This document shows positions 23,971 through 46,690 of a stretch of DNA of 55,311 nucleotides, in pieces. A program made the position numbers and the translations under genes. Source of the DNA: Bacillus sp. FJAT-27245 (GTDB lineage: Bacteria; Bacillota; Bacilli; Bacillales; Cytobacillaceae); the NCBI RefSeq assembly GCF_001273955.1, contig NZ_LIGI01000001.1:2633473-2688783 (forward strand). The letters run 5' to 3'. Each line of letters starts with the position of its first letter. The first letter of the stretch is position 1. A model generated the notes under the pieces. The model was not told where the DNA came from and ran no database searches. It saw nothing but the letters and a program-made list of their open reading frames with translations.

Positions 23971-24140
23971 TCAAACCGTCTTCATAAACTGGATGAAGAC
24001 CCATTTACTCAAAAAATCCACACCAAACTGTCTTCATGAACCCGATGAAGACACTTTCACTCAAAAAGCGAGGCCAAACTGTCTTCATGAACCTGATGAA
24101 GACAGTTTCACTCCCCAACAGCACGAAAAAATGCCTTCAT
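23971..24140. repeat. Tandem array A, period 51-52 bp
   Basis: Three units start at 23971, 24023 and 24074, and a decayed fourth at about 24125. Each holds the dyad GTCTTCAT, a 7-base loop, and ATGAAGAC; in the third unit the stem grows to 13 perfect pairs (24076-24088 with 24096-24108). The rest of each unit is a roughly 25-base A-rich spacer with ACTC. The array lies between convergent genes. Confidence 0.85.
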
Positions 24141-24179
24141 AACTTATGTTCCCAACCAATCCCGAAATCGGATAGGAAC

Positions 24180-24992
24180 CTACTCCGCCTTCTCAATCAG
24201 CGCTCCATCCACTTCGTATTTTACTTCGGAAAAATTTTTAATGAGCAATTCTTCACCAATATGATTGCCTGTCACCTTGTCGATTGTCTTTCTCCAAATT
24301 TCGTTTTGCCGATAATTCCTGCCGTCTTTTTGCAAAAATTTATGGTTCCGCTCCTCGATATGATAAGCAAATGGCCAGTCGTGATTGGTGTGGATCGAAC
24401 CTTTCAGGTGTTTGTCCGTCAGCCAGACTTTAACTTGAAAAGGCTGGCTTGTTGGATTGTGAAACCGCAAATCAACATAATTGTAAAAGACCCCCGCTCC
24501 GCTTCCGAATGGCAGGACCCTTCCTTCATCGGGAAACGGGTCAAAGCTATGGTGATGCCTTTCCACAACAAGAAGTGGGGTATGGAGCGCCATCCAGTAG
24601 AGCAGGTTGGCGAGCTGGCAAACTCCCCCGCCAATTCCGGTCTTTACTTCCCCCATCGACAGAAGCATTCCCTCAATATACCCTTTTTTCGCTGAAGGGG
24701 AGCCGACAAGCTTCCAGAAGGAAAACGTCTCTCCGGGGCTGATTACAATCCCGTCGATTGCTTTTGAGGCAATTGAAATGTTGACGATTTTGTTTTCCTG
24801 AAGCTTCGGGTCGCTGTCGCCGAGTTTCCTCTTCAGGAGAGATTGATGCTTTTTACAGGCAAAAGGCAAGGTTTCATTTGAAATGCATACGGCAAACTTT
24901 TTTCCCGCACCTAAATCCTCGAGATGGCGAAAAATTTGCTTTTGCTTAATCCTCAGATTGTATAAAATTGGGTGCAATTCAGAAAAGCGAAT
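24180..24992 (-). CDS. VanW family protein
   Basis: About 270 residues with the VanW domain: SPGETFSFWKLVGSPS, then GGGVCQLANLLYWMALH with the conserved Cys, and HHHSFDPFPD. The role of VanW is unknown; these chromosomal copies are common in Bacillaceae and do not imply vancomycin resistance. The start is odd. GGGGGG at 25000-25005 is 7 bases before an in-frame ATT at 24990-24992, while the first ordinary start (TTG at 24977) is too far from it. With ATT the product begins (M)RFSELHPILYNLR. Confidence 0.85.
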   Translation of the reverse strand: MRFSELHPILYNLRIKQKQIFRHLEDLGAGKKFAVCISNETLPFACKKHQSLLKRKLGDSDPKLQENKIVNISIASKAIDGIVISPGETFSFWKLVGSPSAKKGYIEGMLLSMGEVKTGIGGGVCQLANLLYWMALHTPLLVVERHHHSFDPFPDEGRVLPFGSGAGVFYNYVDLRFHNPTSQPFQVKVWLTDKHLKGSIHTNHDWPFAYHIEERNHKFLQKDGRNYRQNEIWRKTIDKVTGNHIGEELLIKNFSEVKYEVDGALIEKAE

Positions 24993-25070
24993 CTAAAATC
25001 CCCCCTGACAAGATTCCCCTGTATAAATTCCATGAAAGCGCTATACTTATAGTCAAAAAGGTAAGGGGTA

Positions 25071-25241
25071 ATGAGTATGGTATGATTCATCCTTCTTGGA
25101 CTTTGGATGGTTTACGTGGTATTCAGCCTTTCAACCAGCAAACACAAATTGAATCTGATTATGAAGCACTTAAATATTGAGCCAGAGAAGCCGCCAAAGG
25201 TTTCAAATGAAGAGATTGAAAAGGAGTTGGAACAGCGCTGA
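25071..25241 (+). pseudogene. Small membrane protein frame with an in-frame TGA at codon 5
   Basis: ATG at 25071 follows AAGGGGTA. After four codons comes TGA (25083-25085), then 51 open codons reading FILLGLWMVYVVFSLSTSKH and onward to NIEPEKPPKVSNEEIEKELE, a membrane helix followed by a charged tail, which looks like real coding sequence. Without the TGA it would be a 56-residue single-span protein. A later ATG at 25107 has no ribosome binding site. I do not recognise the family. Confidence 0.5.
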
Positions 25242-25290
25242 AGGGCAAAACAAGCAATAAGATCAGTAGTAAAAAATAAACTTTTTTCAT
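25159..25290 (-). CDS. Short frame with signal-peptide-like start, possible gene remnant
   Basis: GGGGAGG 8 bases before the ATG at 25290 is a strong ribosome binding site. The 43-residue product starts MKKVYFLLLILLLVLPFSA, like a secretion signal, but the rest (after residue 20) runs antisense to the tail of the small membrane frame and ends at a chance stop. It may be the 5' end of a truncated exported-protein gene. Confidence 0.35.
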   Translation of the reverse strand: MKKVYFLLLILLLVLPFSAVPTPFQSLHLKPLAASLAQYLSAS

Positions 25291-25407
25291 AAGAGCAGCC
25301 TCCCCTGCAAAAACTTTTCCACCTGTATCCATAATTCGCCAAAAGAGTGCAAAATCCTTTTCTCTCTGGGGGGGGCAGTTTTCAAATTGACAAAGTGAGG
25401 AGAAAAT

Positions 25408-26466
25408 ATGGACCTTAAGTTTTTATCAAACCGTTTTATGACGTTTGCCGAAAAGGAATGCAAAGGGTCAAGTGCGCTGTACGAATATCTTTCGAAAGAA
25501 ATTGCCGGTGATACCGAACTCCTCAAACTCTGTTCGCATGCCCGGAAAGGACAGCCGGTTCCAAACCTTTTGTTTGGCGCTGTCCATTATTTGCTGCTGA
25601 AGGGCGCGGACCATCCATTAAGAGGTTTCTATGCCAGCATTGAACAGACACCGCATCCGGCCGAAGCGTCATTCCCGCATTTTAAACACTTTTGCCTTGA
25701 GAACCGGATGGAAATAATTGAACTTCTTGAAACAAGGCTGGTCCAGACAAACGAAGTCAGGCGCTGCGCCTACCTCTTTCCCCTTTTCAATTACATACAC
25801 GAACTCGCTGCCCGGCCGCTGGCGCTTATTGAAATCGGCACGAGCGCCGGATTCCAGCTGCTTTGGGACCATTACAGCTATACGTACGGGGATGGAGTTG
25901 AATTTGGCATAGAAGGAGCGGAAGTAAAAATCCATGCTGCGGTAAATGGGGATGTACAGCCGGTTTTTAATAAGCGAATTGCTCCGGTATCCGCCCGCTA
26001 CGGACTGGATTTGCATATCAATGATGTGACTAAGGACGAGGATTCCCTTTGGATGAAGGCGCTCATCTGGCCGGAGCACCGGGACAGAAGGGAATTATTC
26101 GAGGGCGCCGTACAAAGCATGAGAACCAACCGGGAAAAAATCACCTTTATCGAGGGGGATGGCGTCGAGCTCCTTCCGCGACTAATCGAACAGATTCCGG
26201 ATGACTCCGCAATTGTGGTATTCCATACGCATGTGGCCAATCAAATGCCGATGGAAACAAAATTAAAACTTCTGGAGAATGCTGAAGGAATCGCAAAAAG
26301 CCGTGATGTTTTCCACCTTTATAACAATATGAATGATGCAAATCTTCATCTGGATTCCTTCGTTGGAGGGCAAAAAAGGCATCAGCTCGCAGCCATAACT
26401 GACGGCCATGGACGATGGTTTGAGTGGAAGCTTGAAACTGGTATTGAGGCGGGAAAAACTAAGTGA
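25408..26466 (+). CDS. DUF2332 family protein
   Basis: 352 residues matching the DUF2332 family as I recall it. Visible landmarks are PNLLFGAVHYLLLKG in the N-terminal half, the central LALIEIGTSAGFQLLWDHYS, which resembles a glycine-rich nucleotide or SAM loop, and IVVFHTHVANQMP. The fold suggests a methyltransferase-like domain, but activity is unknown. GTGAGGAGAAAAT precedes the ATG. A run of eight G (25368-25375) sits 33 bases upstream. Confidence 0.8.
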   Translation: MDLKFLSNRFMTFAEKECKGSSALYEYLSKEIAGDTELLKLCSHARKGQPVPNLLFGAVHYLLLKGADHPLRGFYASIEQTPHPAEASFPHFKHFCLENRMEIIELLETRLVQTNEVRRCAYLFPLFNYIHELAARPLALIEIGTSAGFQLLWDHYSYTYGDGVEFGIEGAEVKIHAAVNGDVQPVFNKRIAPVSARYGLDLHINDVTKDEDSLWMKALIWPEHRDRRELFEGAVQSMRTNREKITFIEGDGVELLPRLIEQIPDDSAIVVFHTHVANQMPMETKLKLLENAEGIAKSRDVFHLYNNMNDANLHLDSFVGGQKRHQLAAITDGHGRWFEWKLETGIEAGKTK

Positions 26467-26523
26467 GTTGGTACTGCCAACACCACACTGCTTATAAAAG
26501 TGCGTGAAAGAGCATTCAAATAC

Positions 26524-26559
26524 AAACCGCCCATTTCCGGGATATAGAATGGGCGGTTC
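26524..26559. terminator. Bidirectional terminator between DUF2332 and SDR genes
   Basis: AACCGCCCATT/AATGGGCGGTT hairpin between two convergent genes, with T-rich sequence on the plus side (ACTATTTTT). Confidence 0.8.
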
Positions 26560-26563
26560 GAAA

Positions 26564-27355
26564 CTATTTTTGATTAAATGCCTTTTTCCCAAGCCTTTCG
26601 AACAGCCGGGGAAACAGCGCGTAAAAGACGCTGCCCGCGTTCATCCAGCCAGGCAGGTTGATTTCGCGGACCGGCTTTATCATGCTGGCGACAACCTTTT
26701 CGGCAACATATTCAGGTTTCAGCATCCAGCGTTTTACATTTTTCACGTAGGACCCGCTTTCATCAGCGATATTGAAGAAGTTCGTTTCAATCGGCCCGGG
26801 ATTGACCGAGGTCACATGAACATTGAAATCGGACAGCTCCATCCTCAGGCTGTTTGTATAACCGAGGACGGCATGTTTCGTTGCCGAGTACACGCTCGAT
26901 TTCGGCGTGGCAATTTTCCCGGCCTGGGAAGCGATGTTGATGATATGTCCCGAACGGCGGGCCGTCATTTTCGGGAGAACAGCGCTTGTACATGCCATAA
27001 GCCCGATGACATTGACGTCGAACATCGCCTTAATTTCGTCGATATCCGCTTTATGGGCGAAGCGGAAGATGCCAAATCCGGCATTGTTGACAAGGATATC
27101 AATAAAGCCCAAATCCTCATATATTCGGGCAAATACAGCTTCTACCTCAACTGTATCGGATACATCAAGTCTATAGACCAGAACCTTGCTAGCATAGGCG
27201 GACTCAAGCTCGCCTTTCAGTTTCTCAAGCTTGTCAACGCTTCTCGCAAGCAGGGCAAGGTTTGCTCCCTTGGCTGCTGACTGTCTGGCGATTTCAGCGC
27301 CGATTCCTCCCGAAGCGCCTGTTATGACGATATTCTTTCCTGTCAAATTCCCCAT
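26564..27355 (-). CDS. yqjQ: Short-chain dehydrogenase/reductase, YqjQ-like
   Basis: A classical SDR of 263 residues: cofactor loop TGASGGIGAEIA, LVNNAGFG, catalytic Ser in NIASQAGK and YSATKHA (Tyr-x3-Lys). The substrate is unknown. It lies 11 bases downstream of the MBL-fold gene, the same pairing as yqjP-yqjQ of B. subtilis. Confidence 0.93.
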   Translation of the reverse strand: MGNLTGKNIVITGASGGIGAEIARQSAAKGANLALLARSVDKLEKLKGELESAYASKVLVYRLDVSDTVEVEAVFARIYEDLGFIDILVNNAGFGIFRFAHKADIDEIKAMFDVNVIGLMACTSAVLPKMTARRSGHIINIASQAGKIATPKSSVYSATKHAVLGYTNSLRMELSDFNVHVTSVNPGPIETNFFNIADESGSYVKNVKRWMLKPEYVAEKVVASMIKPVREINLPGWMNAGSVFYALFPRLFERLGKKAFNQK

Positions 27356-27366
27356 AGCAGTTCACC

Positions 27367-28329
27367 TCACCTGATTTTATAATACTTTATTTTATCATCC
27401 AAAATTGGCTCGATTTCACCAAGGGAAAGCAAATAATCGACCTGGCCGGCTGTTTCGGACAAAGTTAGGCCAAGTTCGCGTTCAAAGGCGGCGGGGAACA
27501 GCTGCCGGCATATATCAAACACCGTTTTCGGTCTGTCCTCGAGCATATTTTTCACATTCATTGCACGTTCATGCTGGCGCGCGAGCCTTCTCTCAATCAG
27601 TTCAGGCAGCTTCGAAACATTTGCCCCATGCCCTGTGTAGACCATTCCGATCGGATAATCGCGAAGTTTTGCAAGCGATCGGTTGTATTGAAGCTGCGGA
27701 CGAGGCCGCTCGATTCCTTTGGCAATCGGCGGTTCGAGCAACGGGTTCGGTGAGATATGGGCGATTACATGGTCGCCGGCAAGAAGCACACCATCCTTTT
27801 CCCTGTACAGCGCGATATGGCTTTGGGCATGGCCCGGCGTCTCGATCACCTGCCAGTCCGGCAAACCAGGAGGCTTATCCCCTTCCAAAAGCTCTCCAGT
27901 AAGTGATCGATTGCAGGAGTATTTAAGCGATTTTTTCAGCTGGCCGGCAAGCCTGAGATACGTTTCGGGAATTCCAAATTCAGTGAACAGGCCAAGGTAA
28001 AAGCGGTCATGCGCCGCCATAAATTCATCAGTCCGGTTAATCCATCTTTCAGCGATAGGATGCCCATAAACCTCGAGTGATTTAGGAAAATAGTCGAGAA
28101 GCCCAGCATGGTCAGGGTGGTCATGGGTCAGGACAACCATCTCGATATCTTCCGGGGCAAGGCCAAGCTCCGACAGCTGGCGATTCAATGAAGCCCAAGC
28201 CTCATCCGTTTTCGGGCCCACATCGACAAGGGCGAGCCTGTCGCTTTTTATTGCGTATACATTAACATCTCCAACCGCAAACGGGGTTTGAAGCGTGATT
28301 TTAGCGATGTTTTCCTTCCATTCAGCCAT
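27367..28329 (-). CDS. yqjP: MBL-fold metallohydrolase, YqjP-like
   Basis: 320 residues with the metallo-beta-lactamase fold. The metal motif is VLTHDHPDHAGLL (HxHxDH), with further ligands in IETPGHAQSH and LLAGDHVI, then VYTGHGANV. The C-terminal part resembles the LACTB2-type extension. It may be a hydrolase of thioesters, lactones or RNA; I cannot say which. It is first in a two-gene unit with yqjQ. Confidence 0.93.
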   Translation of the reverse strand: MAEWKENIAKITLQTPFAVGDVNVYAIKSDRLALVDVGPKTDEAWASLNRQLSELGLAPEDIEMVVLTHDHPDHAGLLDYFPKSLEVYGHPIAERWINRTDEFMAAHDRFYLGLFTEFGIPETYLRLAGQLKKSLKYSCNRSLTGELLEGDKPPGLPDWQVIETPGHAQSHIALYREKDGVLLAGDHVIAHISPNPLLEPPIAKGIERPRPQLQYNRSLAKLRDYPIGMVYTGHGANVSKLPELIERRLARQHERAMNVKNMLEDRPKTVFDICRQLFPAAFERELGLTLSETAGQVDYLLSLGEIEPILDDKIKYYKIR

Positions 28330-28580
28330 GTCTTTTCCCTCGCAACATTATTTTCAAATAAGGAGCCCGCAATTTGGCGGACGCCTTTTCTTCCAGTTTA
28401 CAGATTCAGGTACATATTGTCATTATTTCCGCATAATTACGTATAGCAGAAAGAGCAGTATGCCCGGAAATACACGCCCAAGGCATTAAGGTATGTGAGA
28501 CGTCTCCGGTATTCACTCCGCTCCCCGCTTCAAGCCCCTTAAAATGGTACAATTGAGGAAAACCCAACGGAGATTATGCG

Positions 28581-29717
28581 ATGCTGATATTTTTATTATC
28601 TCTTAGTTTGTTCATTTGGATAGTTTTCCTTGCTGATGCGATGATAGGATTTAGAACGCTTGACCGGCTTGAGGAGGAACTCCCTCTTCGGGATGACCCC
28701 CTCCTTTCGGTCGTTGTTGCGGCAAAAAATGAAGAAGAGCAAATAAAGAAGAGTGTCCTCAGCCAATTGTGCCAAACGTACAGGAATACAGAATGGATTC
28801 TTGTCAATGACAGGTCGACCGACGGGACCGGCGGGGCAATGGAAGAATTAAAAACGGTTGACCCGAGGATCCGGGTCCTTCATATTACCGAATTGCCAGG
28901 CGGCTGGCTCGGCAAGAATCATGCGCTCTACAAAGGATACCTTGCCGCTAATGGCGAACGGATTTTATTTACCGATGCGGATGTTGAGTACCAGGAGGAT
29001 GCTTTTGCAAAGGCACTCGGGTATTTTGAAAGAAATAAGCTTGACCACATGACCGCGGCGCCGAATATGAAAGCAAACGGTTTTTGGCTGAAATCGTTCG
29101 TCGCCTTTTTCCTGTTCGGCTTTTCCTATTACAAACGGCCTTGGACCGCAAACAATCCGAAGTCAAAAAACGGAATAGGCATCGGCGCCTTCAATCTTGT
29201 TTCAAAAGAAGGTTACGAATCGTTCGGAACCCATGAAGCGATTAAAATGAGGCCCGACGATGACCTTCAGCTCGGCATGAAAATCAAGGAGGCTGGGCGT
29301 AGGCAGCGGATTGTCAGCGCCCTGGACCTAATGGAGGTTGAATGGTACGGCTCGCTCGGCGAGGCATTGGCCGGCCTTGAGAAAAACACCTTCGCAGGCC
29401 TCCATTACCGCCTGTCGATGGTAGTCTTCGCGGTGCTTGGCACATTTGCGTCACAGGTGCTGCCGTTTTTCACATTGTTTGTGCCCGATAGGCAAATTTT
29501 TCTGTTAAGCATCGGAAATATCTTCGGGATACTGGCGCTTTACCTGCTTGTTTTGAAAAAAATGACCCGTTTTACTCCCGTATTCTTTATTGCCTTTCCG
29601 CTGACGGCATCCATCTTCATTTACAGCATTATCCGGGCGAGCTACCTCACTTTCAGGCGCGGCGGTATTATCTGGCGAGGAACAAAGTACAGCCTGAATG
29701 AATTGCGCAAGCGGTAA
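28581..29717 (+). CDS. Membrane-bound family 2 glycosyltransferase
   Basis: 378 residues. An N-terminal membrane helix is followed by a GT-A catalytic domain: LLSVVVAAKNEEEQI, the nucleotide-sugar site VNDRSTDGTG, the metal DxD-type ILFTDADVEYQ, and PDDDLQLGMKI. Three or four C-terminal membrane segments (about 255-360) close the protein. The layout resembles carotenoid or glycolipid glycosyltransferases such as CrtQ, but the acceptor is unknown. CGGAGATTATGCG precedes the ATG. Confidence 0.88.
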   Translation: MLIFLLSLSLFIWIVFLADAMIGFRTLDRLEEELPLRDDPLLSVVVAAKNEEEQIKKSVLSQLCQTYRNTEWILVNDRSTDGTGGAMEELKTVDPRIRVLHITELPGGWLGKNHALYKGYLAANGERILFTDADVEYQEDAFAKALGYFERNKLDHMTAAPNMKANGFWLKSFVAFFLFGFSYYKRPWTANNPKSKNGIGIGAFNLVSKEGYESFGTHEAIKMRPDDDLQLGMKIKEAGRRQRIVSALDLMEVEWYGSLGEALAGLEKNTFAGLHYRLSMVVFAVLGTFASQVLPFFTLFVPDRQIFLLSIGNIFGILALYLLVLKKMTRFTPVFFIAFPLTASIFIYSIIRASYLTFRRGGIIWRGTKYSLNELRKR

Positions 29718-32937: not shown

Positions 32938-34440
32938 TTGCCACAAAATGGAGAACAAAAATCATTGATTATGATATTCGGGGCGACGGGCGACCTCGCG
33001 AACCGGAAGCTTTATCCTTCTTTGTACAGGCTCTTCCGAAAAGGCCTTTTATCGGAGCAGTTTGCGGTAATTGGGGTCGCCAGAAGGCCGCTTACAAACG
33101 AGCAATTTCAGGAAAATGTGAGAAATTCGGTCCTTGAAGCCGGCGAAAATGGCGAGAGCATCGGCCAATTCGCTTCCCACTTCTATTACCATTCACATGA
33201 TGTCACAGACTCTGCTTCATATGCAGCATTGAAACAGATAGCCGAAGACCTGGACAATCATTATGGGCTTGGCGGTAACAGGATTTTTTACTTGGCAATG
33301 GCACCCGAATTCTTCGGCCCGATTGCCCTTCATCTTAAAAGTGATGGCCTGACGGACGTATCCGGTTTCAAACGGCTCGTTATTGAAAAGCCATTCGGCC
33401 ATGACCTTGAGTCGGCCATTGAACTGAATGAGCAAATACGCACGGCTTTCGGTGAAGATGAAATTTACCGGATTGACCATTACCTCGGCAAGCAGATGGT
33501 CCAGAATATTGAAGTTATCCGTTTTGCAAACGCTCTTTTTGAGCCTCTCTGGAACAACCGGTATATCTCAAACATTCAGATTACATCAAGCGAAACGCTT
33601 GGGGTCGAGGAACGGGGACGATATTATGAAACTAGCGGGGCTCTAAGGGATATGGTCCAAAACCATATGCTGCAGATGGTCGCGCTGTTGGCAATGGAGC
33701 CGCCGATCAAGCTTACCACCGATGAAATCCGCTCGGAAAAAATCAGGGTCTTCCGCTCCCTCCGCTCGATCGAGGGCAAGGAAGTATCCGAATATTTCGT
33801 CCGTGGGCAGTATGGTTCCGGAGTTTTGGACGGCAAAGAAGTTCCGGCTTACCGGGACGAACCGAATGTAGATAAAAACTCCAATACGGAAACATATGTG
33901 GCGGGAAAAGTTATGATCGACAACCAGCGCTGGGCCGGTGTCCCGTTCTATATTCGGACAGGGAAACGCCTTGGCGCCAAATCAACGAAAATCGTCGTCC
34001 AGTTCAAGGATATTCCGATGAACCTGTATTACCAGCCTAATAAACCATTGAATCCCAACCTGCTCGTCATCCATATCCAGCCCGAGGAGGGAATCACTCT
34101 CCACCTGAACGCCAAAAAGGCGGGCCAGGGAATGGACGCGACGGAAGTGAAATTAAGCTACGCCAATAACGAGGTCAATGAAATGAACACACCGGAAGCA
34201 TATGAATTGCTGCTGTACGACTGCATGCGCGGCGACGCGACAAATTTCGCACACTGGGACGAGGTCGCCCTTTCGTGGAGTTTCGTGGACAAGATTTCGG
34301 ATGCGTGGGAGAGCACGAAAGACGAGAGCTTCCCGAACTACGAACCGGGTGCAAGGGGCCCAGCCGCGGCGGAGGAGCTGCTTGCGAAGGATGGCTTTTT
34401 CTGGTGGCGTGTACGGGACCTGAAAGTAGAAAGATGCTAG
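32938..34440 (+). CDS. zwf: Glucose-6-phosphate 1-dehydrogenase
   Basis: First step of the oxidative pentose phosphate pathway, making NADPH. 500 residues from a TTG start preceded by AAAGGAGTTTTCTTCC. The cofactor loop is IFGATGDLANRKLYP and the substrate/catalytic signature RIDHYLGKQ. FYIRTGKRLGAK is also conserved. In B. subtilis the 6-phosphogluconate dehydrogenase gene lies close by; here a cyclase-family gene follows instead. Confidence 0.97.
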   Translation: MPQNGEQKSLIMIFGATGDLANRKLYPSLYRLFRKGLLSEQFAVIGVARRPLTNEQFQENVRNSVLEAGENGESIGQFASHFYYHSHDVTDSASYAALKQIAEDLDNHYGLGGNRIFYLAMAPEFFGPIALHLKSDGLTDVSGFKRLVIEKPFGHDLESAIELNEQIRTAFGEDEIYRIDHYLGKQMVQNIEVIRFANALFEPLWNNRYISNIQITSSETLGVEERGRYYETSGALRDMVQNHMLQMVALLAMEPPIKLTTDEIRSEKIRVFRSLRSIEGKEVSEYFVRGQYGSGVLDGKEVPAYRDEPNVDKNSNTETYVAGKVMIDNQRWAGVPFYIRTGKRLGAKSTKIVVQFKDIPMNLYYQPNKPLNPNLLVIHIQPEEGITLHLNAKKAGQGMDATEVKLSYANNEVNEMNTPEAYELLLYDCMRGDATNFAHWDEVALSWSFVDKISDAWESTKDESFPNYEPGARGPAAAEELLAKDGFFWWRVRDLKVERC

Positions 34441-34490
34441 AGTTAGTGTCAAAAGTTCTATTGAAAACTGTATCGACCGGAGGGGAAAAT

Positions 34491-35108
34491 ATGAAAATCC
34501 ATGATATTACCGCGCCAATATTCGAAGGAATGACAGTTTATAAAAACAAGCCTGAAAAACAGCCGAAGCTTGAAACAATAACAAACGGCCATGTTACAGA
34601 ATCAAGGCTGAGCATTGACGTACATACAGGTACGCATATTGATGCACCGCTCCACATGATAAATGAAGGGAAAACCTTTGAAACAATTTCGATTGAGGAG
34701 CTTGTAAGAAGCTGCAAGGTATTTGACATGACCCATGTGGCTGACAGGATTTCCGCCGGGGACCTGGAAGGGCTCGATATTGAAAAAGGGGATTTTGTCC
34801 TGTTCAAAACAAAAAACTCCTTTGAAGAGGAATTCAATTTTGACTTTATTTTTGTCGCCAGTGACGCTGCCGAACGGCTTGCAGAAATTGGGGTTGCCGG
34901 CGTGGGAGTTGATGCGCTTGGGATTGAACGCGCCCAGGAAGGCCATCCAACCCATAAAGCGTTAATGGGACGGGATATCATCATCATTGAAGGGCTCCGC
35001 CTGAAAGATGTCCGTCAAGGGGAATATTTCATGGTTGCCGCGCCCCTTAAGCTGCAGGGAACCGATGCCGCCCCGGCGAGGATATTGCTATTGGAAGGCA
35101 TCAGCTGA
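34491..35108 (+). CDS. Cyclase family protein (kynurenine formamidase-like)
   Basis: 205 residues with the metal motif SIDVHTGTHIDAPLHM, matching HxGTHxDxPxH of the cyclase/KynB family, and the later GVGVDALGIERA and HKALMGRDIIIIEGL. Members hydrolyse formylkynurenine or related amides and esters. No other tryptophan-degradation gene is near, so the substrate is open. The ATG at 34491 follows CCGGAGGGGAAAAT, 50 bases after zwf, so cotranscription is possible. Confidence 0.88.
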   Translation: MKIHDITAPIFEGMTVYKNKPEKQPKLETITNGHVTESRLSIDVHTGTHIDAPLHMINEGKTFETISIEELVRSCKVFDMTHVADRISAGDLEGLDIEKGDFVLFKTKNSFEEEFNFDFIFVASDAAERLAEIGVAGVGVDALGIERAQEGHPTHKALMGRDIIIIEGLRLKDVRQGEYFMVAAPLKLQGTDAAPARILLLEGIS

Positions 35109-35186
35109 TTAGCGGTGATTTTATTCCTAGAAGCCCGACTATTGGCAAATATATCGAACAGCAGTCGGTTGTTAGGCATTTGGTCA

Positions 35187-35313
35187 CTAAACGATGGCTT
35201 AGCGACCGAACTTCAACGGCAAGCGGGTCTTTCGGGCTCTAAACGATGACTTAGCGACCGAACAGCAACACCCAGCGGGGCTTTCGGGCTCTAAAGGTGT
35301 TTTACAGTGTTCG
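35187..35313. repeat. Tandem array B, period 52 bp
   Basis: Two full units start at 35187 and 35239 with CTAAACGATG(A/G)CTTAGCGACC and end with CTTTCGGGCT; a third, partial unit starts at 35291. A decayed copy in the same phase can be seen at 35135-35186. The dyad CCGAA...TTCGG is weaker than in the other two arrays. The array lies between convergent genes. Apart from it and the terminator, the 313-base gap holds nothing I recognise. Confidence 0.75.
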
Positions 35314-35364
35314 GTAATAAGAGTTCCGCCTAATAGTGTAGTATTGTATGAGAACCATCAAATA

Positions 35365-35396
35365 AAATGCCGCCCGGCTCTATGGGCGGCATTTTT
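35365..35396. terminator. Bidirectional terminator between cyclase-like gene and dinB
   Basis: AATGCCGCCC and GGGCGGCATT form a 10-bp stem; TTTTC follows on plus and TTTATTTG on minus. Confidence 0.9.
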
Positions 35397-35421: not shown

Positions 35422-36708
35422 CTAGTCAACTTTATTCTCTTCTTCCCGGGCCCCAGGCCTGAATCCGCGAAGAAAATCCTTGTTGAAGCTTGTTTCCGTT
35501 CCTTTATTTGGATCGGTTTCCTTCAAGGTGCCCGCATTGGCAATAATGTTTTTCCCATATTTCTCTTTTAGCACGGAAAGGGTATTATAAAGCGGTTCCT
35601 TTTTCGCTTCCTTTTCATAGGAAAACAAGTCGAGCTGTTTGACAGCCTCTTCCGCTCCCGCCAAATCCGATCCCGTAATGCCCAGCAGCCTGACAGGATC
35701 GCCGTTCCAGTTCGTAATAAGTAGCTGTTTGGCAAATTCCAGTATTTCTTCCTTTCCGGCTACAGGGTTCGTAAGCTTTCTGCCGCGGTTGACCGTTTTC
35801 CTGTCCTTGTAGCGGATTGTGATGGAGAGGGAATTGGCAACAACCTGTTTCCTTTTCAGCCTTGTGGCAACTTTATCCGCAAGGCCGTCAAGCACCGCCA
35901 AAAGCTCGTGCTGGTTTGCAATGTCCCTCGGCAGCGTCGTGGAATTCCCGATGCTTTTAAAATCAGATACGGAATCAGGATCCACATGGCGCGGGTCAAT
36001 TCCATTCGCGCGGTCTTTCAGCCTGGGACCGTTAATCCCAAGAAGCATCTTCAATTGTATATCGTTGGCGGAAGCAAGCGCCCCGATCGTTTCAATCCCG
36101 ATTCCTTTCAGCTTATCCGCTGTTTTCGCGCCCACTCCGTGCATATCGCCGACCGGCCTTGGCCAAAGGACTGTCGGTACATCCCGTTTCCGGAGTACAG
36201 TTATCCCCATCGGCTTTTTCATATCCGAAGCTGTTTTGGCAAGGAATTTGTTCGGGGCGATCCCAATGCTGCATGGCAAATCAAGCTGCGCCATGATCCG
36301 CTTCTGGATCGTCTTCGCGATATCAAGCGGGCTTCCGAGTTCATAGCTTTCCGTAATATCCAGATACCCCTCATCAATTGATACCGGTTCGACTAACTGT
36401 GTAAATTGGGAAAGGATATCAAACATTGCCTTTGAGGCTGCCCGGTAACGATCAAAGTTCGGCCGCATCACAATCAGCTGCGGGCAAAGCTTTTTCGCCT
36501 CCCATAGTGGCATTGTCGTCCTGATCCCCATCTTTCTGGCTTCATAGCTGCATGTCACGATGATTCCACGCCGTTCCTCCGGATTGCCGGCAATGGCCAG
36601 GGGTTTCCCCTTCAGGGACGAATCATGGGCTGCTTCCACCGATGCATAGAAACTGTTCATATCGACATGCAAAATAACCCTGCCCTTTTTCGGATACATC
36701 TCCTTCAT
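35422..36708 (-). CDS. dinB: DNA polymerase IV (DinB/YqjH type)
   Basis: Lesion-bypass Y-family polymerase of 428 residues. Catalytic motifs are LHVDMNSFYASVE and VSIDEGYLDIT; then a helix-hairpin-helix part (DMHGVGAKTADKLKGIG) and little finger. A clamp-binding-like QLDLFSYE motif lies near residue 375. The ATG at 36708 follows GGGGGTGATGGCC; upstream in-frame ATGs lack such a site. Unlike the YqjW-type gene, I found no LexA box upstream. Confidence 0.96.
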   Translation of the reverse strand: MKEMYPKKGRVILHVDMNSFYASVEAAHDSSLKGKPLAIAGNPEERRGIIVTCSYEARKMGIRTTMPLWEAKKLCPQLIVMRPNFDRYRAASKAMFDILSQFTQLVEPVSIDEGYLDITESYELGSPLDIAKTIQKRIMAQLDLPCSIGIAPNKFLAKTASDMKKPMGITVLRKRDVPTVLWPRPVGDMHGVGAKTADKLKGIGIETIGALASANDIQLKMLLGINGPRLKDRANGIDPRHVDPDSVSDFKSIGNSTTLPRDIANQHELLAVLDGLADKVATRLKRKQVVANSLSITIRYKDRKTVNRGRKLTNPVAGKEEILEFAKQLLITNWNGDPVRLLGITGSDLAGAEEAVKQLDLFSYEKEAKKEPLYNTLSVLKEKYGKNIIANAGTLKETDPNKGTETSFNKDFLRGFRPGAREEENKVD

Positions 36709-36896
36709 GGCCATCACCCCCGTTCTCTTTTCTCTTAGTTTAACAAAAACAGGGCGTCCCCGCATCCCATCGTGAAGGCAATTCATTTCCGGATGAACTT
36801 GTGATTCCTCGGCCTATTTTGTAATATAAACGAAACATGCTAACATAAAATACGTCAAATGAGTATAACTGTTTATTTCAGCAAGGAAGTGATGGT

Positions 36897-41343: not shown

Positions 41344-41874
41344 CTATTGAATGGCACCATATTCAATTCCCAATTCCGCAAAAGGCCGATTTGAGGATGT
41401 GATCAAAATTTTCGTGCCGAGCGGAATGAACGGATAGAGCGATTCAATTCCTTCATTTTGAAGCCTAATGCAGCCCTCTGATACATACTTTCCGATGGAT
41501 GAAGGATCATTTGTGCCATGGAGCCCGTAAGTCCTGCCATCCGTTCCTTTGGCGTCAAAGCCGATCCATCTTGTTCCAAGCGGGTTGGCCGGGCTAGAAC
41601 CAGGAATGTCCTTCTTACGGTAATACGGATTTTCGGCCTTGACTGTTACGGTAAACAGCCCTTCCGGAGTCAGTCCGGCGCTTTTCCCCGTACCGACCGA
41701 AAGGACAGTCTGGACCCGGTTGTCATCAATAAAAGCCATTTCGTTTGTCTTTTTATTGATGATGATAAACGTATCGCCCGGGAGCGGATTTGGGCCAAGC
41801 GGCCAGATTGGTGAAACAAACAGGACAGATAAAAGCATAGCAAGTAAATTTGCCATACATACCACCCTTGCCAT
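41344..41874 (-). CDS. L,D-transpeptidase (YkuD domain), YqjB-like
   Basis: Cell-wall enzyme of 176 residues or slightly fewer. An N-terminal hydrophobic segment suggests export. The YkuD catalytic motif is complete: YGLHGTNDPSSIGKYVSEGC, with the reactive Cys followed by IRL. Both the ATG at 41874 (AGGG upstream) and the one at 41856 (GGGTGG upstream) are possible starts. It begins 6 bases after the aromatic-acid-exporter-like gene, so the two share a transcript. Confidence 0.88.
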   Translation of the reverse strand: MARVVCMANLLAMLLSVLFVSPIWPLGPNPLPGDTFIIINKKTNEMAFIDDNRVQTVLSVGTGKSAGLTPEGLFTVTVKAENPYYRKKDIPGSSPANPLGTRWIGFDAKGTDGRTYGLHGTNDPSSIGKYVSEGCIRLQNEGIESLYPFIPLGTKILITSSNRPFAELGIEYGAIQ

Positions 41875-41880
41875 TTTTCC

Positions 41881-42876
41881 CTAGTTTGCGCCAAATGCCC
41901 CGCTTCGATTCTCCTTTTCCGTTCCCTTAATCCCTTTAAAAGAGCTTTTTATGAGAAGGTAGTCCTCAAGCTCATTAACCATTTGGACGACCGCTGCCCT
42001 TGCCACAAATTCCTCTCTCGTTCGCGGAAGCTTCATCACTTCGAACTCTTTCTTCAAGTTTCTTAATTTATCAAGGTAGATGTACGCCGTATTGCCGGGA
42101 TGGATGTTCTCGCAAAGCTCCTCAATAAAATCAGCCATCATCCTGCCCTGTTCGACTGATCGGGTAAGCGAAGCAGAGATTGGCAATATCCGTTCGATGA
42201 TTCCAAACTGTTTTTCCCTCATCATAAAATAACGATAATAGTCGTTTTCCTCACGGAGCAGATGGTTCTCGACATCGCGGAAAGCGAGTGATTTCGCTTT
42301 ATTCAAAAGCTTCGAGGTTTCATCTATTTCCTTTCCATCCCAGGTGCTTTCATTCGTCCGCAAATATCGGGCCATTTCCAGAAAAATTTTCCTGAAGTTG
42401 TCTTCTATCTGGTTCCCGTATTCATACAGTTTTTTTTCAAGGCTCGGCATATACAGATTCATCACAAGCGCCACCCCAATCCCGACCATAATCACGATGA
42501 GCTCATTCAAAATAATATCTTTTGAAATATGGCCCGCTGAATAAATATGAAGGATGATGACTGAACTTGTCACAATCCCATCATTGGCCTTTAGCATCAC
42601 AATTGTAGGGATAAAGAAAAATAGCATTAAACCGATGACGAGCGGATGGTAGGCAATTGACTCAAAAAAAAGCGCGGAGAAAGGCATTGCCAAAGTGCAG
42701 GCTAGAAATCTGTCCCATGCCGCCCTAAGCGACTTTCTTTTCGTCGGCTTGATGCATAGGATTGTCAGGATCGCAGCCGAAGCGAAGTTATGGGCTCCCA
42801 ACTGCTGTGCGATGATGATGGATGCCGCTGTACCAATCGCGGTTTTGGCCGTCCTGTAGCCAATCCTGTATTTCAT
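41881..42876 (-). CDS. yqjA: FUSC/DUF939 membrane protein, YqjA-like
   Basis: 331 residues of the aromatic acid exporter-like family. The N-terminal half has about five membrane segments (up to residue 140, starting YRIGYRTAKTAIGTAASIII). The C-terminal half is cytosolic, charged and helical. The ATG at 42876 follows GGGAGGGACAAGTCT; a longer frame to 43071 runs into the art operon and is rejected. The substrate is unknown. Confidence 0.9.
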   Translation of the reverse strand: MKYRIGYRTAKTAIGTAASIIIAQQLGAHNFASAAILTILCIKPTKRKSLRAAWDRFLACTLAMPFSALFFESIAYHPLVIGLMLFFFIPTIVMLKANDGIVTSSVIILHIYSAGHISKDIILNELIVIMVGIGVALVMNLYMPSLEKKLYEYGNQIEDNFRKIFLEMARYLRTNESTWDGKEIDETSKLLNKAKSLAFRDVENHLLREENDYYRYFMMREKQFGIIERILPISASLTRSVEQGRMMADFIEELCENIHPGNTAYIYLDKLRNLKKEFEVMKLPRTREEFVARAAVVQMVNELEDYLLIKSSFKGIKGTEKENRSGAFGAN

Positions 42877-42907
42877 AGACTTGTCCCTCCCTGCAAAAAA
42901 AAACAAA

Positions 42908-42938
42908 TGAAAAAGATGATCATAGCGACCATCTTTTC
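42908..42938 (-). terminator. Terminator of the art operon
   Basis: AAAAGATG, an 11-base loop and CATCTTTT on the minus strand, continuing TTTC, just after the ATPase stop. Confidence 0.8.
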
Positions 42939-42952
42939 CTAGCATATCCTCA

Positions 42953-43675
42953 TTAAAGCATTTTTTGCAAGAATTCCTGAGCCCTTTTGCTTTTTGGGTT
43001 TGAGAAAAATTGCTCCGGAGCCGCATCCTCGACCAGGACACCGCCATCAAGGAACAGAACCCGGTCGGCAACTTCCTTGGCGAAGCCCATTTCGTGTGTG
43101 ACGATTGCCATCGTCATCCCTGTATGTGCCAACGACTTCATGACGTCTAGAACTTCCTTAACCATTTCCGGGTCAAGCGCGGATGTCGGTTCGTCGAACA
43201 GCATGACTTGCGGCTTCATCGCCAGAGCCCTTGCAATCGCGACCCGCTGTTTTTGCCCTCCTGAGAGGCGGCCAGGATACTCCCCTGCTTTTTCAAAAAG
43301 TCCGACTCGCTCTAGCAGTTCATAGCCTACTTTTTCCGCTTCGGCCTTTGTTAATCCTTTTACCTTCATCGGGCCGTATGTTAAATTTTGCAGGACCGTC
43401 TTATGTGGGAATAAGTGAAAATGCTGGAATACCATCCCGACATTTTCACGTACCTTGTTGATATTGGTCTTCTTGTCCGTAATTTCGCTTGGCCCGATCC
43501 AAATCCGTCCGCTTGTAGGCACCTCAAGCATGTTCATGCAGCGCAGGAATGTTGACTTCCCGGAACCGGATGGCCCGATAATGGCGACCACCTCTCCATC
43601 CTTTATAGAGGTCGTTATTCCTTTGAGAACCTCAAGCTTTCCAAAATTTTTGCGCAAATCCTCAACTTTAATCAC
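42953..43675 (-). CDS. artR: Amino-acid ABC transporter ATP-binding protein, ArtR-like
   Basis: 240-residue ATPase. Walker A is GPSGSGKST, the signature [15 protein letters not shown], Walker [15 protein letters not shown] and the switch His in VTHEMGFA. It is of the polar amino acid group and closes the artPQR-type operon; its start overlaps the end of the permease gene by 8 bases. Confidence 0.95.
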
Positions 43676-44327
43676 CGCGCCTCATCCTCCTTTCAACCAG
43701 CTTGCCAAGGAAGGTCAAGATAATGACCATGAGGTAATAGATTAAGCCGGCAACAATAAGAGGTTCAAAGTATGAATAATACTGGGCCCCTACCTGGTAG
43801 GAACGGCGCATGATATCCATGACCCCGATGGTTGTAACAATGGCTGATTCCTTGGTGAGGGTTATGAATTCATTCATAAGTGCAGGCAGAATATTTTTCA
43901 ACGCCTGCGGCAGGATAATATCCCACATCATTTGCCTGTATGGAACGCCCAGCGCAAGGGCTGCTTCCCTTTGTCCTTTGTCGACCGCAAGAATCCCCGC
44001 CCTGATGATTTCGGAAATATACGCCGCGGAGTTAAGCGCGAATGAAATGATGGCTGCGGTATAAGGCTCAATCTGAAATCCAAGAATTTGAGGGGAGCCA
44101 AAATAGATGATCATTAGCTGTAGGACGAGCGGCGTACCCCTAAAAATACTTGTATAGGCATCCGCCAGCCAGCCCAGCGGCTTAATTGTGCTTATTTTAA
44201 ATAGTGATAAAACAATTCCAAATGCGAATCCGAGTATGCCCGCTATCAATACAATGCGCAGCGTAACAAGGATCCCTTCCAATATATACGGAATAGAGGG
44301 GACAATTTGCCCAAAATCCAATCCCAT
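43668..44327 (-). CDS. artQ: Amino-acid ABC transporter permease, ArtQ-like
   Basis: 219 residues from the ATG at 44327 with about five membrane segments. The EAA loop that contacts the ATPase is [21 protein letters not shown]. The N-terminus [18 protein letters not shown] is typical of the family. Upstream ATG codons at 44354 and 44339 are possible but less like relatives. It is probably the arginine-type permease by synteny with yqiY. Confidence 0.93.
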
Positions 44328-44357
44328 TCTAAAAACCATTCCTCTCTGCTTCAACTG

Positions 44358-44394
44358 TAAAAACGTTCAGAGAGGACATGCCTCCTGAACGTTT
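44358..44394 (-). terminator. Hairpin between artP and artQ
   Basis: AAACGTTCAG...CTGAACGTTT followed by TTAC on the minus strand. Such hairpins after the binding-protein gene commonly lower read-through and protect the upstream mRNA, giving more binding protein than permease. Confidence 0.75.
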
Positions 44395-44407
44395 ACATGC
44401 TTTCCCT

Positions 44408-45199
44408 TTATTGTTCCCCGCCAAACCATTTTACAACCAGTTTATCGAGTTCACCATTTTCTTTCATTTTTTGCAGTTCTTTGTTGAATTTCTCAGTCAG
44501 TTCGCTATTCTTAGGGAACGCGATTGCGGAGCCGGCTTCTTCCGGATCATCCGAAATGGTAAACCCTTCAAGGTTTTTTTCGTGTGCGAAGAATCCCTTG
44601 GCAACTGTGTCCTCAATGATGGCGGCGTCGAACCGGCCGGATTTGATTTCCTGGATCAGATCAGGAATCCTGTTCCTGTCTTCGATTTTAATTTTCACTT
44701 CTTTTTGGATTTCCTCGGCTTTTCCTTGCTGGATCGATCCAAGCTGGACGCCGACTGTCTTGCCTTCAAGATCCTTCAGTGATTTAATGCCGCTGTCCTT
44801 TTTCGTAACGATCATATGGGAAGCGGTGTAGTAGATATCGGTAAAATCAACATTCTTCTTGCGGTCTTCCGTCGGGGTCATACCTGCAAGAACAAAGTCT
44901 GCCTGGCCGGATTTAAGCGCCTGCACAAGTCCGTTGAAGTCCATGTCTTTCACTTGCACATCGTAGCCAAGCTTACTGGCCAGAGCTTTCGCCAGGTCAA
45001 CGTCGAACCCAATAATTTCATTGCTTTTTTCAGTTTCGATATACTCAAATGGCGGGTAATCGGCAGAAGTACCCATGATAAGAGTTTTCTTATCTTCTCC
45101 TCCGTCCCCGGTTTTCGCATCGTCTTTCTTCGTCCCACAAGCTGAAAGGACGCCCGCAAGCAGGACTGCGCTTAAAAATAAAAGAATGCTTTTTTTCAT
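44408..45199 (-). CDS. artP: Amino-acid ABC transporter substrate-binding lipoprotein, ArtP-like
   Basis: 263 residues. A lipoprotein signal ends at LSACG (Cys at 21). The mature part has the SBP family 3 fold: TSADYPPFEYIE, GFDVDLAKALASKLG, DFVLAGMTPTEDR and GKTVGVQLGSIQQ. By order and similarity it matches B. subtilis ArtP (YqiX), the arginine-binding component; ligand choice is inferred. It starts the operon. Confidence 0.94.
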   Translation of the reverse strand: MKKSILLFLSAVLLAGVLSACGTKKDDAKTGDGGEDKKTLIMGTSADYPPFEYIETEKSNEIIGFDVDLAKALASKLGYDVQVKDMDFNGLVQALKSGQADFVLAGMTPTEDRKKNVDFTDIYYTASHMIVTKKDSGIKSLKDLEGKTVGVQLGSIQQGKAEEIQKEVKIKIEDRNRIPDLIQEIKSGRFDAAIIEDTVAKGFFAHEKNLEGFTISDDPEEAGSAIAFPKNSELTEKFNKELQKMKENGELDKLVVKWFGGEQ

Positions 45200-45296
45200 T
45201 GAAGTTGACCTCCCTAATTTACTGAAAATTTTCTATCTTCATTATTACTACCCATTTTAAACGTGAAAAATCCCTTTTTACAAGTAAAAACACCGG

Positions 45297-45311
45297 GTAA
45301 TAATTATTCAC
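45297..45311 (-). promoter_or_regulatory. Candidate arginine-repressor (ARG) box before artP
   Basis: Minus-strand GTGAATAATTATTAC keeps the TGAAT-N4-ATT core of ARG boxes but not the last two bases. It sits just downstream of the predicted -10, so a repressor bound there would block transcription. Confidence 0.4.
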
Positions 45312-45319
45312 ATTAATGA

Positions 45320-45347
45320 ATTTTAACACGTATAAATAATTATGCAA
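45320..45347 (-). promoter_or_regulatory. SigA-type promoter of the art operon
   Basis: TTGCAT (45342-45347), a 16-base spacer and TAAAAT (45320-45325) on the minus strand, about 120 bases before artP. Confidence 0.5.
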
Positions 45348-45683
45348 TAGTATTTTTAAAAATCACATTGGAAATTTAAAGAAAAGTTGGTGTGGAAGGA
45401 TTTTCAGCTGTAGCGTTGTAGTATGAATGGATTTCGGATGGTTTTTTTGGGGTGTGACATATTAGTTTGGGTATTTAGCTGGGGTATTTTTGCAAGTGGC
45501 TCCTTTGGGTAGCGGCATTGAAGTATGGGGTATGCTAGCGGGGTCCGATTTTGCGAGAGATGAGCGGTCCTGGTTTGCGGAGGATAAACAAGTCATGGCT
45601 TTTTTATAGGGATGAGGAAATCCAATGGCCGCTCGTTTTTCCAGATCCAGGACCAGGTGCCGTGAAATTGCCGCCATGCACCC
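45348..45683. other. Gene-free stretch with possible decayed repeat
   Basis: No frame with a ribosome binding site. GGGGTATTTTTGCA (45481-45494) and GGGGTCCGATTTTGCG (45539-45554) look related and lie 58 bases apart, so this may be the remains of another tandem array. Nothing else is recognised. Confidence 0.35.
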
Positions 45684-45723
45684 CAAAAAACGGCCTGTTG
45701 TGCAGGGGCACAACAGACCGTTA
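45684..45723 (-). terminator. Terminator of brxB
   Basis: AACGGTCTGTTGTGC pairs with GCACAACAGGCCGTT (one G-T pair), followed by TTTT, on the minus strand. Confidence 0.92.
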
Positions 45724-45760
45724 AAAGCTTCTCGAAACGTAAGGGTTTTTCCCTGCAGCG

Positions 45761-46198
45761 TTACAGCTCTTCGCAGTACTGGTCAAAGCTTTGCTGCAAC
45801 TTCTGGATAACATTCATTGGGTCAAATCCTTCAATATCATGGCGCTCAATCATCGTGCAGATTTTACCGTCCTTCAAAAGCGCGAATGAAGGAGAAGATG
45901 GCGGGTAGCCGGTAAAATAGCTCCTAGCCTTCTCAGTGGCTTCCTTATCCTGGCCGGCAAAAACGGTAACAAGGTGGTCCGGGCGTTTATCATAATGGAT
46001 TGCATGCGCCGCAGCAGGCCTCGCGATGCCTCCCGCACATCCGCAAACCGAATTGATCATAACAAGCGTCGTTCCCTTGCGGCTAAGCGCTTCATCCACT
46101 TCTTCAGGGGTTTTCAGCTCAGTATAACCCGAAGCCGAGATTTCCTGGCGCGCCTGTTGGACAACGTCGTTCATAAACAAATTAAAATTCATATTCAA
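45761..46198 (-). CDS. brxB: Bacilliredoxin BrxB (YqiW)
   Basis: 145-residue thioredoxin-like protein that removes bacillithiol from S-bacillithiolated proteins. The active site is the CGC motif in [18 protein letters not shown]. The family ends with [14 protein letters not shown] and IERHDIEG. Start is the TTG at 46198, which gives the standard [13 protein letters not shown] and lies 8 bases after GGGAG. A GTG at 46207 overlaps the ribosome binding site. Confidence 0.95.
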
Positions 46199-46360
46199 TG
46201 GAATCACTCCCTGTAAACTGAAATAAAAATACCTATTTCTATCATACAGGGCACGGAAGGGGTTTTCAATTATTGAGAAAAATTGTGCAGACAGGTTTAT
46301 TTCCTTCCCGCTCGGGGAAAGGTAGAACTACAGCTAGATCCATACCCCTAAACTCCCTAA

Positions 46361-46398
46361 TTTTTTGGATAGCGCATTTGCGCTATCCGCTTTTTTTG
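46361..46398 (+). terminator. Orphan plus-strand terminator
   Basis: GGATAGCGCA and TGCGCTATCC form a perfect stem, then GCTTTTTTTG. All genes around are on the minus strand, so no known transcript uses it. An unannotated small RNA upstream is possible. Confidence 0.7.
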
Positions 46399-46463
46399 TT
46401 TCTGCGATGACAGCAGCACAAAATAAAGTGATTTTGGCAGCCTGCTAACGTGGTTCCCACTTT

Positions 46464-46690
46464 GCTGTCCAGACATCGGGCATCTTTGGACACACTTCCC
46501 TCGAAAATTCTATTTGCTGTCCAAACATGAGGCATCTTTGGACACACAACCCTTGAGAATTCACTTTGCTGTCCAAACATGAGGTATCTTTGGACACACA
46601 GCCCTCGAAAATTCTATTGGCTGTCCAAACATGAGGCATCTTTGGACACACATCCCTCGAAAAATTAATTTGCTGTCCAAACAGGTGACA
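46464..46690. repeat. Tandem array C, period 52 bp
   Basis: Four full units start at 46464, 46516, 46568 and 46620, and a fifth partial unit at 46672; every step is exactly 52. Each unit carries the dyad TGTCCAAA, an 11-base loop, and TTTGGACA, then a conserved spacer (CACA-CCCTCGAAAATTCTATT). The first unit has one change in the stem. Frames read through it are artefacts of the repeat. It lies between brxB and the broken NERD gene. Confidence 0.92.

Follow-up and report, generated by a model that had tools for sequence, protein, structure and literature searches.

The window analyzed here, a 55,311-nucleotide stretch of the soil bacterium Bacillus sp. FJAT-27245 (contig NZ_LIGI01000001.1, positions 2,633,473 to 2,688,783), contains three intergenic tandem arrays, designated A, B, and C, with units of 51 to 52 bp that each carry one palindrome. 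In these and related arrays, the AT content of the unit oscillates once per helical turn, with a phase fixed to the palindrome center. The arrays are further members of a published class of 52-nt Bacillus repeats, and for the fixed length of this class a geometric explanation that can be tested is now available. Judged from their sequence, such arrays are probably DNA-level shape elements, i.e., curved or wrappable spacers that would localize supercoils between genes.

The 52-bp unit and its palindrome

Tandem Repeats Finder (TRF) places array A at 23972..24113 (51-52-bp units, 2.8 copies, TRF period 51), array B at 35187..35295 (52-bp units, 2.1 copies), and array C at 46461..46683 (52-bp units, 4.3 copies), none of them assigned to a strand. 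These are the sole TRF rows of period >21 in the window. A preliminary description of the window had reported three arrays with a common unit length of about 52; they are real, with TRF periods of 51, 52, and 52 at the places it named. A degenerate third copy of array B, read by eye, reaches approximately 35313. By inspection, the period-51/52 arrays in the 0.8 Mb sampled from this genome form three palindrome families, A, B, and C, each represented once in the window, and the sequence of array C has 31 matching places in the genome, counting itself.

The preliminary description had assigned a hairpin per unit to two of the arrays. The palindromes are indeed present, and all three arrays have one per unit. 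The palindrome of array A measures 25 nt (TGTCTTCAT-N7-ATGAAGACA), with cores GTCTTCAT..ATGAAGAC at 23978, 24030, and 24081; that of array B measures 32 nt (TTCGG...CTAA-N8-TTAG...CCGAA) and starts at 35179 and 35231. In array C, palindromes of 27 nt (TGTCCAAA-N11-TTTGGACA) with the frame TGTC-N19-GACA start at 46466, 46518, 46570, and 46622. Because A and C have the ends TGTC...GACA in common, the arrays can be called unrelated only as far as B is concerned. Likewise, the proposal that they do not descend from one repeat is half right: the TGTC...GACA palindrome occurs in both A and C, and its 27-nt form is common to array C and many arrays of relatives.

Helical phase of the unit

The AT content of the 52-bp unit oscillates once per helical turn. 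In a first set of 45 arrays with the TGTC frame (from a total of 48, with three omitted that have only 51-bp steps), 10.4 bp is the largest of 26 harmonics. Its power share equals 0.097, compared to 0.0385 in permuted units (0/2000 permutations as high), and is still 0.0835 (0/2000) when the eight fixed letters TGTC/GACA are masked. AT peaks lie at unit positions 9.0, 19.4, 29.8, 40.2, and 50.6, with the dyad at 14 and a phase resultant of 0.964 (n=45). For validation, a further 29 arrays were taken from the order search described below, 23 of them with a 52-bp step; they show a share of 0.099, AT peaks at 8.6, 19.0, 29.4, 39.8, and 50.2, and a phase resultant of 0.958 (n=23). The 25-nt spacer alone, assessed at a phase fixed beforehand, is in phase in 22/23 validation arrays; the same holds for 43/45 arrays of the first set, the set that supplied the phase. 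When the 68 arrays are pooled, a sine on the 44 non-fixed positions has a best period of 10.45 bp (R2 of 0.74 at 10.4), and 63% of the power of AA/TT steps falls in the 10.4-bp harmonic. Spacer identity between the arrays is 27.9%, compared to 26.0% after shuffling. This AT/GC oscillation, its phase fixed to the palindrome center, strongly supports the earlier suggestion of a common constraint of about five DNA turns.

The phase extends to units that lack the 27-nt frame. Nine period-52 arrays of this kind, three of them from families A and B of this genome, have a share of 0.122, and 18 published consensus units have a share of 0.103, or 0.092 for the 12 among them without the frame (0/2000 in each case); in both the nine arrays and the 18 units, 10.4 bp is again the leading harmonic. 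The dyad lies on GC in array A, at an offset of 5.2 bp from AT, and in array B, at an offset of 4.9 bp. In array C, where the dyad is again on GC, the AT peak occupies unit positions 8.3-9.1 with the dyad at 14, an offset of about 5. Among 21 units without the frame, including the 12 published ones, 17 are centered on GC, with offsets of 4.4 to 5.2 bp. A symmetric pattern allows only AT or GC at its center, so the outcome is a split of 17 to at most 4.

The summed AA/TT bend was assessed by a column-shuffle test, whose null is relied upon here since it is fairer than that of an array-level AA/TT phasor test, which breaks the repeat. Shuffles were as high as the observed bend in 0.15% of cases for array A and 0.2% for array B. 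Across 37 arrays, 36 exceed the median of their shuffles and 15 exceed the 95th percentile. Most of the summed bend is lost in silico when the step is set to 47 or 57. A rough wedge model, assuming an AA wedge of 8.7 degrees, predicts approximately 43 degrees per 52 bp, compared to 24 for shuffled sequence.

Lengths of whole helical turns are not restricted to the 52-bp class. In sequence that was not selected by pattern (TRF score >=60, period >=15), 48/62 noncoding arrays have periods that deviate by no more than 1 bp from a multiple of 10.4, with 11.9 expected, as do 5/19 coding arrays. After removal of the 50-54 class, 23/35 noncoding arrays are near such a multiple. The 20-22 (n=10), 40-42 (n=6), and 104-nt (n=6) classes are AT-phased at approximately 10.4 bp (3, 4, and 0 of 1000 permutations, respectively), with the proviso that 104 and 156, being multiples of 52, are not independent of it.

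Period 52 in the genome and the published repeat class

The genome of FJAT-27245 comprises 4,606,627 bases in five contigs, of which two 400-kb stretches (0.8 Mb) were sampled by TRF. Noncoding arrays of period >=30 in this sample have periods of 42 (one array), 51 (one), 52 (seven), 57 (one), and 63 (one), and the seven of 52 bear out the anticipated excess at this period, as opposed to evenly spread periods. Among all rows of score >=60 and period >50, nine lie at 51-52, two of these overlapping, and one each at 57, 63, 84, 87, and 103; the row at 103 overlaps an array of period 52. Distances between neighbors of the same family equal 52 with few exceptions (51, 48, and 206). A period of 52 is the rule throughout the genome and the order. 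All period-51/52 TRF arrays of the sample lie in the stretch C1 2600001-3000000 and none in C1 1300001-1700000; runs of N in the C1 stretches analyzed occupy approximately 2906130-2906699 (570 bases) and 2939204-2943738 (4535 bases).

The preliminary description had considered the arrays a candidate for an undescribed system. However, constant-size 52-nt repeats of variable sequence were published in 2021 by Subirana and Messeguer (PMC8161180), who found them in approximately 30% of the Bacillus species that they studied as well as in other Firmicutes. The present arrays share with them a unit of 51-53 nt (neighboring steps of 51-52 in the window), variable letters, several families of the same size per genome (A, B, and C here), a noncoding location, species-patchy presence, and copy numbers that differ between strains. 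Arrays A, B, and C are all intergenic, lying in gaps flanked by Pfam-matched genes or, for C, by an open reading frame (ORF) with a weak match. With respect to the published cut-off, four or more repeats within 800 nt, array C has 4.3 copies, whereas A (2.8) and B (2.1) are below it.

That study left the length without explanation and put forward nucleoid proteins or small RNAs. It reports species-specific short signals, frequently alongside their reverse within one repeat, and mentions two helical turns for the 20-21 nt class only. In its main text, the terms "palindrom", "intergenic", and "terminator" are absent and "turns" occurs a single time, in reference to the 20-21 nt class. No repeat of 51-53 nt is given for B. 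subtilis in its Table 4. The searched part of a 2019 paper by Subirana and Messeguer (PMC6749651) lacks the terms "52 nt", "turns", "helical", and "hairpin", and we did not recognize the same claim in the titles and abstract openings of the literature on helical phasing or curvature of such repeats. What the present analysis adds to the published description is the TGTC..GACA frame, the dyad, and the 10.4-bp phase.

The TGTC-N19-GACA frame across genomes

Several published consensus units and family C have an outline in common, consisting of TGTC, a variable arm, a loop, the complementary arm, and GACA (27 nt), followed by 25 nt; family A is a 25-nt version of the TGTC...GACA outline. Genomes were therefore searched for tandem TGTC-N19-GACA pairs, with a gap of 12-42 between the two copies so that steps of 39-69 were permitted. 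In the family, the pattern occurs in 138/193 genomes, with up to 632 matches per genome, and the reversed pattern yields 3 single hits. In the order, it occurs in 76/397 drawn genomes and 33/136 genera, the reversed pattern being found once each in 6 genomes. Among 299 drawn genomes of the phylum, 13 contain the pattern, including that of FJAT-27245; the 12 others represent rare presence outside the order, and none of the matches listed outside the order has a 52 step. The reversed control (ACAG-N19-CTGT pairs) was found in 3 genomes of the phylum set, one of which (G845) matches it nine times.

Adjacent steps measured 52 in 86 cases and 51 in 4 across 30 family loci; across 30 order loci, 80 measured 52, 32 measured 51, and one measured 68. 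The ends TGTC/GACA are constant and the inner arms differ between arrays. The frame is not universal: at least 7/8 of its letters occur in 16/27 TRF arrays (score >=80, period 50-54, 2.77 Mb), compared to 2.2% of shuffles, and most of the other 11 arrays have other palindromes. For the single TGTC..GACA palindrome, the N19 count in 0.8 Mb is 22, with at most 20 at other gaps. Given the lack of a clear N19 peak, the single palindrome is not diagnostic, but the tandem pair is.

Two side observations concern more distant genomes. A relative within the phylum (L275, G830) carries arrays of the same TGTC-N19-GACA frame with a step of 44 bp. Such a step does not complete an integral number of helical turns, and these arrays possibly belong to a separate class. 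In a distant family (L276 and L277, G761 and G634), dispersed TGTCAATGGGGACGGTTCT-type repeats with TGTC/GACA ends occur at variable steps.

Genomic context and turnover

As described initially, the arrays occupy gene-free gaps, and A and B lie between convergent genes. Array A is approached by an alpha/beta hydrolase gene (22961..23896, + strand; Pfam PF00561, 2.5e-34) and a VanW-like gene (24180..24977, - strand; PF04294), with a hairpin and T run resembling an intrinsic terminator (23897..23935, + strand) separating the upstream gene from the array. Array B is flanked by a putative cyclase gene (34275..35108, + strand; PF04199) and a Y-family DNA polymerase gene (35422..36786, - strand; PF00817), which served as the anchor for orthologous sites; a bidirectional terminator-like hairpin without assigned strand (35364..35396) is located downstream of the array. 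Both hairpins were predicted from sequence. The gap of array C also contains a terminator-ended, sbrA-like small RNA gene just before the array (46328..46395, + strand; Rfam RF01489, Listeria, 59.6 bits, gathering 45). On its other side, an ORF with a weak NERD-domain match under the Pfam cut-off (46757..47404, - strand) has its stop approximately 74 nt from the array.

Position was analyzed for 48 arrays, 30 of them from loci fetched by the pattern, using a home-made, crude gene finder and terminator test; the gene finder labeled array C "divergent" after missing the ORF at 46757-47404. None of the 48 arrays lies inside a called gene, and overlaps reach at most 10 bp. The arrays occupy 33 co-directional, 7 convergent, and 6 divergent gaps, with two at contig edges. 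For co-directional arrays, the median distance to the upstream stop is 107 nt and that to the next start 234 nt, and 29/33 are nearer the upstream stop, an outcome matched by 4/20000 random placements. A terminator-like hairpin with a T run precedes the array in 23/33 cases and occurs on the other side in 9/33. One orthologous site contributes 5 of the 33 arrays, and without these 24/28 are nearer the stop. At this site, shared by Mesobacillus, Cytobacillus, and Bacillus sp., the stop is followed by a terminator, an array with 3-10 exact palindromes, and a promoter-like region; a sixth copy (L121) is cut by a contig end.

Relatives were also compared at the sites of the window, where copy number differs at sites B and C and the letters differ at site C. 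The closest relative among those listed is N. piezotolerans (anchor protein, 89%). At site B, FJAT-27245 carries two units plus a remnant, N. piezotolerans a single unit, and N. notoginsengisoli no unit. At site C, the four full units of FJAT-27245 correspond to approximately seven in N. notoginsengisoli, where the letters differ (approximately 25/52 shared; spacer 9.2/25, compared to 6.3 by chance) and the phase is unchanged; no unit was found within the fetched stretch of Bacillus sp. EB01. At site A, a related longer palindrome is present in two copies with a step of 51 in Bacillus sp. EB01, and no array was found within the stretch read of N. notoginsengisoli. Copy number shifts by whole units, and a site may retain an array while its letters change.

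Alternative explanations

The arrays could be operators, in which a dedicated dimeric protein reads the TGTC half-sites and polymerizes at five turns per dimer, for example, to structure the nucleoid, with the AT/GC phase as a side effect of bending. The constancy of TGTC/GACA beside variable inner arms is consistent with this, as is the step distribution, in which neighbors are 51 or 52 apart save the one pair at 68 although steps of 39-69 were permitted. A control motif of the same composition, CTGT..ACAG, has 1 match in 20 genomes with TGTC pairs, and a polymerizing protein is already among the proposals of PMC8161180. Yet period and phase are shared by other palindromes without the 27-nt frame, though not by all of them: family B of this genome, GGTAA..TTGCC, GTCACA..TGTGAC, and 9/12 published units. 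RemA has been proposed to wrap DNA in B. subtilis, according to the part of PMC8481266 consulted. RemA-like (PF04025) and HU (PF00216) genes are present in all 31 genomes searched, comprising 15 array-rich genomes and 16 that lack TGTC pairs; they therefore fail to separate the two groups and are uninformative as candidate readers. On balance, we regard an operator function as unlikely. Less is to be said for transcribed arrays whose hairpins would serve as attenuators, small RNAs, or protectors of the message, an explanation that we find very improbable. The 52-nt repeats of B. coagulans are reported to be transcribed (PMC8161180 and the consulted part of PMC8625621), and array C adjoins the sbrA-like RNA. 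However, in the transcript sense the 33 co-directional arrays show no excess of G.U (10.0 cells) over A.C (12.8 cells), A.C being higher in 17 arrays and G.U in 9, with 7 ties. The terminator-like hairpin ahead of 23/33 of these arrays also argues against this explanation, and the 10.4-bp phase has no obvious meaning in RNA. Pairing of the arms amounts to 73-79% at positions 5-8, drops to 54% at position 9 and 44% at position 10, and then reaches background. The pairing and the G.U/A.C balance are better accounted for by symmetric half-sites in DNA than by a stem in RNA.

It is highly improbable, in our estimation, that the arrays are mobile palindromes of the repetitive extragenic palindromic (REP) type, spread by a Y1 transposase (REP-associated tyrosine transposase [RAYT]) into gaps that tolerate them. 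Like such elements, they are palindromic, intergenic, often behind genes, and species-patchy, and the sole RAYT-like gene of this genome has an adjacent hairpin array. But TGTC pairs are present in 25/44 family genomes with a RAYT-like match and in 10/17 without (61 searched), and TRF periods >=50 beside RAYT genes are 54/108, 117, and 130, found in 3/30 loci. RAYT as a driver was rejected on this co-occurrence and the differing periods. REPs carry GTAG or CGTC tags, neither of which occurs here (0/77 arrays within 6 nt outside the first palindrome). Palindromes alternate in orientation in bacterial interspersed mosaic elements (BIMEs), in contrast to the direct, head-to-tail units of the window arrays and the 30 family loci. 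The RAYT-like Y1 transposase gene itself lies at L051:1300-1872 (- strand), with its hairpin array at L051:2023-2500 (period 54/108), which carries TCACTAGTGA and GGGGTCAGACCC; in two sister genomes, the arrays beside RAYT genes have periods of 117 (L059) and 130 (L063), and two IS200-like Y1 transposase genes of this genome (L049 and L050) have equal score and length. Neutral duplication, i.e., slippage in harmless gaps with a length inherited from a founder and no function, is likewise an unlikely account. The changes by whole units, illustrated by site B with two, one, and no units in three species, agree with it, as do the patchy presence and the absence of any overlap >10 bp with a called gene (0/48). 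By contrast, it would not lead one to expect a dyad-locked phase kept despite near-random spacer identity, one phase shared by different palindromes, or 21- and 42-nt classes that are also whole turns. Nor would it predict the conserved phase of site C in two species with approximately 25/52 letters in common. Carriage by phages was also rejected: the pair pattern occurs in 19 stretches of a viral collection of 2.9 million contigs, which was read as approximately chance from the size of the collection, without a shuffled control. Clustered regularly interspaced short palindromic repeats (CRISPR) have unique spacers between identical repeats, whereas the spacers here are alike within an array.

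A putative role in DNA shape

The explanation we favor is that the arrays act through the shape of their DNA. The 52-bp unit spans five helical turns and bears one palindrome, and along the unit AA/TT-rich and GC-rich stretches alternate every turn, with GC on the dyad and AA/TT approximately 5, 15, and 26 bp off. Curved, wrappable DNA is classically characterized by phased AA/TT. Since each unit completes a whole number of turns, small bends would align and sum along the array, and since they sum only with whole-turn units, the length would be forced and the letters left free. If the arrays bend in solution accordingly, each may constitute a curved, readily wrapped segment in the gap behind a transcription unit and localize supercoils there, either by pinning the tip of a plectoneme or by offering gyrase or a nucleoid protein a platform for wrapping. 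Contact with a dimeric partner protein at the dyad is suggested by the symmetry of the ends, which are TGTC/GACA in the most common class.

Intrinsic curvature pins plectoneme tips, and curvature over approximately 70 bp predicts supercoil position, according to the consulted parts of an eLife 2018 paper (PMC6301789); these parts report the curvature upstream of promoters, a difference from the present arrays, and do not treat tandem repeats. As given in the part of PMC6379681 consulted, G/C is phased in the gyrase motif of E. coli, and the enzyme is enriched downstream of transcribed operons. Because curvature pins plectonemes and the gyrase motif is phased, a supercoil-handling spacer is favored, acting through curvature itself or through a wrapping protein. 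The gyrase motif resembles the arrays (10.4-10.45 bp) in that G/C varies approximately once per turn, symmetrically about the center, but it differs in having 130 bp, a period of 10.75, and a single cleavage-site center, as opposed to a dyad every 52 bp. BIME-2/REP elements are likewise intergenic palindrome arrays, often behind genes (PMC3733652, part consulted), and BIME-2 is bound by gyrase (PMC6379681, part consulted). In the sucB-sucC BIME-2 of E. coli K-12, the sole region checked, the dyad spacing is 38/51/38.5 and the repeat measures approximately 89 bp; BIME-2 was dropped as a structural twin.

More tentatively, noncoding satellites of approximately 21, 42, 52, and 104 bp in these Bacilli may form one class that owes its definition to helix geometry instead of sequence, with whole-turn units whose phased bends sum to curved or wrapped DNA. 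Members of this class could act as supercoil-handling insulators between terminators and promoters, with one symmetric protein-contact dyad per 52-bp unit.

Several observations weigh against a shape-based function. With the whole palindrome masked, per-unit power falls to 0.045 (z of 1.3; 217/2000) and is not significant, unlike the phase-locked tests. Ordinary intergenic 52-mers (n=5,428) show a weak signal of the same kind (share of 0.048), and in the array-level AA/TT phasor test ordinary intergenic DNA reaches 3.37, compared to 2.88 for shuffled sequence and 4.91 for the arrays. GC is absent from the dyad in 4/21 units without the frame, and array C on its own fails the column-shuffle test, with 7.4% of shuffles as high. 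Some of the arrays are not independent of each other, as six loci in the first set represent one orthologous site, and 55/193 family genomes have no tandem TGTC pair. The sucB-sucC BIME-2, one region, has other spacings and no 10.4-bp AT signal; as BIME-2 geometry differs and the gyrase motif has a period of 10.75, the involvement of gyrase is suggested by analogy only.

A geometric rule would explain 52 nt across different sequences without shared letters, and the function it implies is testable with few constructs. If the role in supercoil handling is true, bacterial genes would be separated by shape-coded elements that are invisible to sequence-homology searches.

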